A stretch of 64,000 bases of DNA from Thermaerobacter sp. PB12/4term. GTDB lineage: Bacteria; Bacillota; Sulfobacillia; Thermaerobacterales; Thermaerobacteraceae. Of the stretch, positions 8,995-12,125 are shown one piece after another. A program made the position numbers and the translations under genes. Location: assembly GCF_003403315.2 (NCBI RefSeq), contig NZ_CP048407.1:1302001-1366000 (forward strand), read 5' to 3'. Numbering within the stretch: position 1 is the stretch's first letter; each line of letters begins with the position of its first letter. The notes beneath the pieces were generated by a model, which was not told the DNA's origin, made no database searches, and was given only the letters and a program-made list of their open reading frames with translations.

Positions 8995-9600
8995 CTAGCC
9001 CATCCGGCGCAGCAGCGCCACCACCTTCCCGAGGATACGGGCCGTCCGGACGCGGATGGGCTCCATCGCCGGATTTTCTGGCTGCAGGCGGATACCGTCC
9101 CGCTCCCGGTAGAACCGCTTCACCGTGGCTTCATCGTCGATCAGGGCGACCACGATGTCCCCGTTTTCGGCCGTTTCCTGTCGCCGGACGATCACGTAGT
9201 CACCGTCCAGGATCCCCGCCCCGATCATGCTATCGCCGCGGATGCGCAGGGCGAAAACCTCCCCCTCGGGCACCAGTTCCGACGGGAGGGGAAGGACGTC
9301 TTCGATGTTCTCGACCGCCAGGATGGGCTGGCCGGCAGTCACCTGGCCCACCAGGGGCACCGGTACCGTGCGGGTCCGAAGGCCGGTTTCCTCCAGGACC
9401 TCGATGGCCCGTGGCTTGGTGGGATCGCGCCGGATGTATCCTTTCCGCTCCAGCCGCGCCAGGTACGTGTGGACGGTTGATGTGCTCTTCAGGCCCACCG
9501 CCTCGCCGATCTCCCGGACCGAAGGAGGGTAGCCTCGCTCACGGATCGACGCCTTGATGTAGTCGAGGATTTGCCGCTGCCTGCGGGTCAGTTCTTCCAA
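8995..9600 (-). CDS. lexA: LexA repressor
   Basis: LexA is the SOS repressor that self-cleaves when RecA filaments form. The 201-residue product has an N-terminal winged helix ([24 protein letters not shown] as helix 2-3), the cleavage bond Ala89-Gly90 in QVTAGQP, catalytic Ser124 in GDSMIGAG and general-base Lys161 in ATVKRFY. I chose TTG at 9600 because GGGAGGT lies 6 nt upstream and the product then starts like other LexA proteins (MEELTRRQ). A GTG at 9615 is possible. A promoter overlapped by an SOS-like box lies upstream, suggesting autoregulation. It is divergent from a yneA-like gene. Confidence 0.97.
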
Positions 9601-9742
9601 GTCGGCACCTCCCACCGCCGCGGGCCCTTTTCCCGCTGCTTCCGCCGCCCCGGTCCCTTGCCTGGTGGATCTGGATTTCCCACCGCCGTGGCGCTGTAAC
9701 CCCGGCGCTGCCGGTCGGGCGCCGGCGGGTCGTTCTGCACCC

Positions 9743-9771
9743 ATTGTACGGATCGAAAGCAGGTTCCACAA
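9743..9771 (-). promoter_or_regulatory. lexA promoter (sigma-A type)
   Basis: On the minus strand TTGTGG (9771-9766) and TACAAT (9748-9743) are separated by 17 bp. The start would be near 9736, giving a leader of about 135 nt before TTG 9600. An SOS-like box overlaps the -35 element. Confidence 0.6.
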
Positions 9772-9840: not shown

Positions 9841-9871
9841 TTGACACGGAACACACGTTCCGTGGTATGAT
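9841..9871 (+). promoter_or_regulatory. SOS-controlled promoter of the yneA-like gene
   Basis: A perfect -35 TTGACA (9841-9846) and a -10 TATGAT (9866-9871) are spaced by 19 bp. The first SOS box fills the spacer and a second lies just past the -10. The leader before the coding region would be about 30-80 nt, depending on the start codon. Confidence 0.75.
9845..9864 (+). promoter_or_regulatory. SOS box 1 (LexA operator)
   Basis: CACGGAAC-ACAC-GTTCCGTG is an inverted repeat with perfect 8-bp arms and contains the GAAC-N4-GTTC core. It sits between the -35 and -10 elements, so bound LexA would block RNA polymerase. Confidence 0.85.
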
Positions 9872-9878
9872 GGCAACC

Positions 9879-9890
9879 GAACAAATGTTC
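9879..9890 (+). promoter_or_regulatory. SOS box 2 (LexA operator)
   Basis: GAAC-AAAT-GTTC has the exact core half sites and lies around the expected transcription start of the yneA-like gene. Its centre is 30 bp from that of box 1, about three helical turns. Confidence 0.8.
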
Positions 9891-9909
9891 CAATGCCGGG
9901 GTGATGGTC

Positions 9910-10431
9910 GTGGCAGTACGGGTTCAGAGCCGGGGTGCCAGGGCTGTTGAGGACGGCATGGGACGAGGCGGCCGGCCGGCGGCGGGCGCTTTCATGCGCC
10001 ACCGGTATCGATGGGGCCGGCCGGGGCGGACCGTGACAGCCCTGGTTCTTATGACAGGAGTGATCCTCGGAGCAGCCTGGGGCGGCGGGCTCTGGCCGGC
10101 GCGAGCTGTGGCCGGTGACGGGGGTGCGGCCAGGCCGCCGGTTCAAGAGGTGGCCCGTCATCCAGGGGGCACGGATCCGGCGGCACCGGCCGGCGGGTTA
10201 CCGGGTACGGCAGCCAGGAATGCCGGTGGTCCTGGGGAGGCTGCCTCATTGAAGGGCAACCAGGTGGTCGTTCGGCGGGGCGATAGCATCTGGGCCATTG
10301 TGGAGCGGTATGGGCGCAGCGACCGGGATCCCCGGGATCTGGTGGCGGCCGTGATGGAGGCCAACGGCCTGACATCCCCGGCGCTACGGCCCGGTATGGT
10401 CCTGGTCCTGCCACCCGAGGTGCTCCGGTAG
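9910..10431 (+). CDS. yneA: LysM-domain membrane protein, probable SOS division inhibitor (YneA-like)
   Basis: The protein has a basic N-terminus, one membrane segment (TVTALVLMTGVILGAAW), a low-complexity stretch, and a C-terminal LysM domain (VVVRRGDSIWAIVERYG to LRPGMVLVLP). This is the layout of Bacillus YneA, which blocks division during DNA damage from outside the membrane. Divergence from lexA and two LexA boxes in its promoter support the same role. The GTG at 9910 has a GGTGAT site; ATG 9958 is also possible. No yneB resolvase follows. Identity rests on architecture, context and regulation. Confidence 0.78.
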   Translation: MAVRVQSRGARAVEDGMGRGGRPAAGAFMRHRYRWGRPGRTVTALVLMTGVILGAAWGGGLWPARAVAGDGGAARPPVQEVARHPGGTDPAAPAGGLPGTAARNAGGPGEAASLKGNQVVVRRGDSIWAIVERYGRSDRDPRDLVAAVMEANGLTSPALRPGMVLVLPPEVLR

Positions 10432-10640
10432 ATGGAGCACCTCGGACCCCAGAAAACAGGTGCAGGGCGGCCCGCTGCCGGCCGCGGTACCTGGTATACG
10501 GCCATCCTCCCGGCGATTTCTCGCGAGCGATTCTTAGCGATTCTTCAGGAAGCATCCTGCCGGCGCAATGGCTCGGTACCGGCGCACCGGGTCAGAAAGC
10601 GACCGGCCGAAGATCGGGGTTTTGCCGGTCCGGTGGCTGG

Positions 10641-10696
10641 CAGGCACGTTGCGACGGACCCGTGCCTGGGCGGAGGAACCGGCATCGGTTCCTCCG
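10641..10696. other. Two adjacent perfect hairpins
   Basis: CAGGCACG (10641-10648) pairs with CGTGCCTG (10661-10668) over a 12-nt loop. Two bases later CGGAGGAACCG pairs with CGGTTCCTCCG around a GCAT tetraloop (10671-10696). No T-run follows on either strand, so these are not classical terminators. They could mark a structured RNA. Confidence 0.55.
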
Positions 10697-10894
10697 CAGC
10701 CGGTGGATGCGATGGGCAGGTATGCCGCAGCTCCGAGTCGCTTCGTGCGGCTTCGCAGCTTTCCCTGGAGAACCCGTTAGCGACCACGTTCCGTGGCCAC
10801 CGGGAAGGCTGGGGGCCGACGGGCAGCGGGACACCGGGGGTCCCGGTTGGGCCGCCTGGGCCCGCCCGGACCTGGTTCCCGGGTGTCGTCCTTA

Positions 10895-10922
10895 ACTTCG
10901 CATAAGTAGCATTATGTTAAGT
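10895..10922. other. dif: Putative chromosomal dif site (XerC/XerD-type recombination site)
   Basis: The site reads ACTTCGCATAA, spacer GTAGCA, TTATGTTAAGT (11+6+11). Against the E. coli dif arms as I recall them, 18 of 22 positions agree, including CGCATAA and 10 of 11 in the right arm. Against B. subtilis dif, 17 of 22 agree, including ACTTC and TTATGT. It is a strongly AT-rich island in a very GC-rich region, it is non-coding, and most genes to its right point toward it. In Bacillus, lexA-yneA also lies close to dif. The sister site and the recombinases are not in this window. Confidence 0.82.
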
Positions 10923-11055
10923 AAAGCTTGGGACCTCGTCAGCCCAGGGCCGCCAGCCCCTCTCGCTCCCCCGACCAGCCCGGCGGCGGGTTCGACCGTG
11001 GACGAGCGGCGAGGAGGCTCCCTGCAGGCGGAGGTCGCCGGGATCCGCCTGCAGG

Positions 11056-11085
11056 GATTCGCCCCAGGCGGATTCGCCCCAGGCG
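11056..11085 (+). repeat. Exact tandem duplication, 15 bp x 2
   Basis: GATTCGCCCCAGGCG is repeated twice without spacer in the non-coding interval beside the dif-like site. Confidence 0.9.
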
Positions 11086-11253
11086 AAGGGTGCCGGGTGA
11101 CGGCGGGAGTAGCCGGGTGACGCGGACCCGGCCGCGTTCCCCTGGAAGCCACGTTCCCCCGAAATCGGGGCCCGCCGCGAAGGGGCACCTGCGGTCCGAC
11201 CGGCGGCACCTGTGGCAACGACGCCCCGGCGCCCGCTCTAGGGCGGCGGCCCC

Positions 11254-11279
11254 GCTGCAGGCGTGGGCTGCAGGCGTGG
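11254..11279 (+). repeat. Exact tandem duplication, 13 bp x 2
   Basis: GCTGCAGGCGTGG is repeated twice without spacer, just downstream of the enoyl-CoA hydratase gene. Confidence 0.9.
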
Positions 11280-11309
11280 CCTGTCCCCTACTGAAGGTGC
11301 GCCCGCGCC

Positions 11310-12125
11310 TCAAAGCGGCGAGCTGGCTTCGAACTGGGGCGGCCGCTTGCCGCGTAGCGCGGCCAGGCCCTCGGCGGCATCCGGCAAGGTGAAACCCAGG
11401 AACTCCAGCGCCGTCGAGGTGTCGAAGATCGGACCCGCGGCCCGCAGCCAGTTGTTGAGGGCGTACTTGGTCCAGCGGATGGCCGTCGGGCTGCCCTGGG
11501 CCAGCCGGCGGGCAATGTTCAGGGCAGCGTCCCGGGCCTCGCCGTCGTTCACGCAGAGGGCGACGAGCCCGATCCGGGCGGCTTCCTCGCCGCTCACGGG
11601 TTCGTTCAGCAGGAGGTGATACTTGGCCCGGGCCATGCCCACCAGTAGAGGCCAGATGATGGCGGCGTGATCGCCGGCGGCCACGCCCAGGCGAACGTGC
11701 CCGTCCAGCAGGCGGGCGTTCCGGGCGGCCACGGCGATATCCGCCAGAAGCGCCACGGCCAGTCCGGCGCCGACGGCGGGGCCTTCGATGGCGGAGACCA
11801 CGGGCTTGGAACAATTGATCAGGTTGTAAACCAGGTCGCGGGCTTCTTTCCAGACCCGCACCCGGACCTGGGGATCCTGCATGATGGCTTCGACCAGGCG
11901 GAAATCGCCGCCGGCCGAAAAGGCCTTCCCTGCGCCCCGCACCAGCACGACCCGAACCCCGGCGTCCCCGTCGATGTCCCTCCAGATGCGGGTGAGCTCG
12001 GTATGGGTCTCGGCGTCCACCGCGTTGAGCGTCTCCGGCTGCTCCAGGACCAGCTCGAGGACCCCGGGTTCCGCCCAGGACAGCTGCAGCCGCCGGTATT
12101 GGTGCCACCAGGACGACACGGGCAT
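11310..12125 (-). CDS. Enoyl-CoA hydratase/isomerase family protein
   Basis: This is a 271-residue crotonase-fold protein. The oxyanion-hole segment [12 protein letters not shown] and the second backbone segment [21 protein letters not shown] are intact. The usual catalytic Glu loop is replaced by [16 protein letters not shown], which occurs in a divergent subgroup, so the exact reaction (hydration, isomerisation or other acyl-CoA chemistry) is open. The ATG at 12125 has GGAGGAAGG upstream; the frame stays open further 5' but that part is not conserved-looking. A leftward MDR-family oxidoreductase gene precedes it at 207 bp. It acts in the cytoplasm. Confidence 0.85.

Follow-up and report, generated by a model that had tools for sequence, protein, structure and literature searches.

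Chromosome dimers are resolved at dif by strand exchange, for which XerC and XerD bind the arms of the site while FtsK aligns and activates (review, PMC5357621). Comprehensive dif predictions have been available since 2011, when a profile placed dif near the skew shift-point for 97 out of 100 Firmicutes with a single chromosome (Kono et al. 2011, PMC3025954); the text of that paper makes no mention of Thermaerobacter. The genome studied here, that of a Thermaerobacter strain, is one contig of 2,820,915 bp, of which we analyzed the 64,000-bp stretch at bases 1,302,001–1,366,000 (the window). A 28-bp sequence in this window, put forward in the original prediction as a putative chromosomal dif and as a sign that the replication terminus lies within the window, is almost certainly the single chromosomal dif site of this genome, and by analogy with the known systems it would function in XerCD dimer resolution. 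That prediction is supported by the uniqueness of the sequence, a skew switch close by, its conservation, and the xerC, xerD, and ftsK genes of the genome. The result is the same kind of prediction as those of Kono et al. (PMC3025954). It is correct but ordinary, one such site being expected in every bacterium with XerCD, and it leaves the understanding of Xer/dif unchanged. The site nonetheless locates the terminus in a Thermaerobacter chromosome, offering a reference point for replichore maps and for the search for FtsK guide sequences in a deep-branching, very GC-rich Firmicute lineage.

Layout and sequence of the candidate site

A check of the window sequence placed the 28-mer ACTTCGCATAAGTAGCATTATGTTAAGT exactly at positions 10895–10922. 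It reads ACTTCGCATAA-GTAGCA-TTATGTTAAGT, with partial dyad symmetry and an exact 11-6-11 layout, and lies in an intergenic gap, with the following features:

10895..10905, + strand: dif left arm ACTTCGCATAA, putative XerC (CodV-type) half-site, from alignment with B. subtilis and E. coli dif and the sites of 11 relatives
10906..10911, + strand: 6-bp central region GTAGCA, between the predicted cleavage points, with correct spacing
10912..10922, + strand: dif right arm TTATGTTAAGT, putative XerD (RipX-type) half-site, from the alignment
10432..11309, no strand: intergenic gap containing dif; the ORFs listed there are unsupported as genes

Comparison with the B. subtilis site (Bsdif, CodV/RipX) shows the same length of 28 bp, the same 11-6-11 arrangement, a terminus position, and the use of two recombinases, with agreement at 17 of 22 arm positions. 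In contrast to Bsdif, in which the right arm is TTATGTAAACT, the right arm here is TTATGTTAAGT; the left arm is GCATAA-like, resembling that of E. coli, and the FtsK protein harbors a gamma domain. E. coli dif (XerC/XerD/FtsK) has the same architecture and agrees at 18 of 22 arm positions, including CGCATAA...TTATGTTAA, but differs in three of the outer four left-arm bases and in one right-arm base. Both scores had been given in the original prediction and are correct against the sequences of the two sites. Homology with E. coli dif suggests that the left arm, ACTTCGCATAA, is the XerC half-site. A site in T. marianensis (G002, 1,313,550) shares 26 of 28 bases, the identical GTAGCA center, the same neighbors, and a position at the skew maximum, and differs by one substitution in each arm.

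In the alignment of the 11 relatives' sites with those of B. subtilis and E. coli, the TTATGT of the right arm is invariant in all 13 sequences. The last-but-one base of this arm is G here and in 2 of the 11 relatives and C in the other 9, and the central 6 bp differ among relatives, as they do among known dif sites. Only 9 of the 28 bases are G or C, compared with 69–76% GC in the flanking gap, and just 17 of the 63,973 28-mers in the window are equally AT-rich; the description of the site as an AT-rich island in a GC-rich, noncoding gap therefore holds. The gap is bordered by the end of a LysM-domain gene at 10431 and, on the opposite strand, by the stop codon of an enoyl-CoA hydratase gene at 11310. 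The ORFs that overlap the site were rejected as genes: their only matches are at a locus of the same genus (G001) and fall in more than one frame, and thus they look like DNA similarity rather than coding sequence.

Uniqueness and conservation

Allowing up to three mismatches over the 22 arm positions, the arm pattern matched the whole 2.82-Mb genome once, while a reversed control pattern at the same threshold gave no match in the whole genome and the arm pattern itself gave none in 100 shuffles of the window. When the inner 14 positions were used alone, the runner-up places had three mismatches (the reverse strand of the site itself being set aside). A sequence-only dif profile, constructed from the sites of 11 relatives together with those of B. 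subtilis and E. coli, the window's own site being left out, recovered the site over positions 1–28 at E 7.9e-6 and gave no second match in the genome up to E 10; because the relatives' sites had been fetched using the window's own arms as pattern, the profile retains some dependence on the window site. The site is present as one copy per chromosome in this single-contig genome, and neither a better copy nor several equally good ones were found elsewhere in it by arm pattern, inner 14 positions, or profile.

The arm pattern, again at up to three mismatches, was found in 11 of 60 relatives, in single copy in each, and the control pattern had zero matches in the 60. The profile detected sites at E 1 or better in 92 of 121 class genomes (our own included), mostly one per genome, and orthologous sites are present in all members of the genus, in the family member, and in members of the order. 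Within the genus, 26 of the 28 core bases are kept, and neighboring 28-bp blocks, compared without gaps, mostly keep 6–15 of 28, with 19 of 28 in one block that adjoins the site in G001. Such a conserved core amid diverging flanks is the footprint expected of a protein-binding site. In some members of the class, dif candidates, which are more symmetrical, matched the profile on the reverse strand as well (G083:C1:1136219-1136240, G114:C16:9220-9247, and G011:C12:2000-2027).

The intergenic place and partial dyad symmetry of the sequence would also suit an AT-rich palindrome that arose by chance, or an element (transcription-factor or terminator) that serves the neighboring genes. We regard this as highly improbable, as the 2.82-Mb genome has no second site within three mismatches across the 22 arm positions, the profile that had been built without the window site matches at the E value given above, and the 28-bp core is kept in relatives with different neighboring genes. 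A chance or regulatory element would also fail to explain why the site falls at the skew switch in two species (see next section). A further candidate explanation arises from integrative mobile elements exploiting Xer (IMEX), which bear dif-like sites and insert themselves at dif (PMC5357621). The sequence could thus be the dif-like attachment site of such an element, or of a plasmid, rather than the resident chromosomal dif. However, there is only one copy of the site, and neither the arm pattern nor the profile revealed a second dif-like site in the genome that would bound an integrated element. Moreover, the flanks are syntenic in all members of the genus (hflX-DUF456-lexA-LysM on the left, enoyl-CoA hydratase and oxidoreductase on the right), and a phage collection yielded no match to the 1 kb around the site. 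Attachment sites of elements usually have one degenerate arm, whereas both arms are canonical here, and there is next to no chance that the site is of element or plasmid origin. Collectively, the single copy, synteny, profile match, conserved core, and skew position led us to reject both explanations in favor of a resident chromosomal dif.

Replication terminus, Xer recombinases, and FtsK

The dnaA start is base 1 of the genome. A search for TTATCCACA for placing oriC returned four scattered matches, of which one lies 32 bp short of the end of the contig, and dnaA at base 1 was used as the origin reference in place of these matches. GC skew, calculated as (G-C)/(G+C) on sampled stretches of the genome, is mostly positive from dnaA to the window and mostly negative beyond it, with the exception of a 10-kb sample at 2.55 Mb. 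In a contiguous stretch of 220 kb, cumulative skew is highest at 1,326 kb, within a plateau at ∼1,314–1,330 kb. The dif site, at 1,312.9 kb, is therefore roughly 1–17 kb from the skew switch, a distance of at most ∼0.6% of the genome. For T. marianensis, cumulative skew in 2-kb bins reaches its maximum at 1,313,550, the first base of the orthologous dif site, so that a dif candidate lies at the terminus, as marked by the skew switch, in both species. The exact antipode of dnaA is at 1,410 kb, 97 kb from the dif site (3.5% of the genome), which indicates that the replichores are slightly unequal, dif site and skew switch being shifted together. The expectation had been a site near the GC-skew minimum opposite oriC. 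The closeness to the skew switch is borne out, but under the convention used here the switch is a maximum (“minimum” would apply under the opposite sign), and the exact antipode lies 97 kb away. No better dif match was found elsewhere near the skew switch, which itself falls near 10895–10922.

The genome encodes exactly two tyrosine recombinases. One is XerD, with a TIGR02225 score of 354.6 bits, above the equivalog cut-off of 329.6. The best match of the other, XerC-like, protein is TIGR02224 at 314.8 bits, just under the XerC equivalog cut-off of 335.15. The XerC-like gene lies after a gene whose product reads like TrmFO, and codV follows trmFO in Firmicutes. The cognate pair is accompanied by one FtsK protein with a gamma domain (PF09397, 101 bits), encoded at 1,257,338. 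In the E. coli system, this domain activates XerD.

If the E. coli and B. subtilis systems are taken as the guide for how XerCD binds, in what order strands are exchanged, and what FtsK does, then an odd number of crossovers would leave the sister chromosomes fused as a dimer, the terminus regions of which would be pumped together by FtsK at the septum. XerC and XerD, bound to both 11-bp arms in each of two dif copies, would form the synapse, and strand exchange across the 6-bp GTAGCA would yield two monomers. No clear guide sequence emerged from the known KOPS/SRS octamers. The B. subtilis guide octamer, GAGAAGGG, showed little polarity (11 versus 7 in a sampled 411 kb). In the same sample, the counts for GGGNAGGG were 163 versus 97, which mixes coding and skew bias, and strong leading-strand bias, coding bias included, was observed for TGCTGGAG (107 versus 16) and GGAGCTGG (133 versus 27). 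Many octamers are leading-strand biased in the 411 kb, coding and skew bias included.

The lexA and YneA-like genes beside dif

Two genes lie to the left of the site:

8995..9771, − strand: lexA, SOS repressor (TIGR00498, 258.6 bits; cut-off, 111), transcribed away from dif
9901..10431, + strand: LysM protein, YneA-like, candidate SOS division inhibitor (NF010723, 35 bits, E 9.7e-9, below the curated cut-off of 60)

The original prediction had pointed to lexA and a yneA-like gene close to dif. Both are indeed adjacent, the first identified by TIGR00498 and the second by a weak match below its cut-off. In B. subtilis, too, lexA-yneA lies within a few tens of kb of dif. The YneA-like LysM gene is syntenic in the genus, family, and order and in a few members of the class, and it directly adjoins dif in the genus as well as in several further families. 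Among 51 class loci, some of which are shortened by contig ends, lexA is 10 kb or less away from the dif candidate in 32, from at least 16 families. It is on the left-arm side in 29 of these and on the right-arm side in 3 (all of family f6); in all 32 it is transcribed away from dif, often with hflX beyond it. A random gene would be so close to dif in <1% of genomes (20 kb in ∼2.5 Mb), although genomes that are related do not count as independent observations. Among the matches listed for a loose dif pattern, mostly from other phyla, no LexA was found near dif-like sites outside the class within loci of up to 8 kb, and a search of the available literature found no paper on lexA–dif linkage.

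It is conceivable, though rather unlikely, that selection has acted on the hflX-(DUF456)-lexA-(yneA-like)-dif linkage as a whole in this class of deep Firmicutes. Were this so, placement of the SOS repressor, and in some lineages of a division inhibitor, beside dif would have a function in terminus biology, for example in gene-dosage timing or in holding back division during dimer resolution. The closeness of lexA and dif may instead reflect nothing more than an ancestral gene order retained where rearrangement is slow, and it raises a synteny question that is small and testable. Two GAACN4GTTC palindromes, CGGAACACACGTTCCG and CCGAACAAATGTTCCA, are found at 9847–9893, in the interval that separates lexA from the divergently transcribed LysM gene. 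GAACN4GTTC is the Gram-positive form of the LexA box; both genes are likely SOS-controlled.
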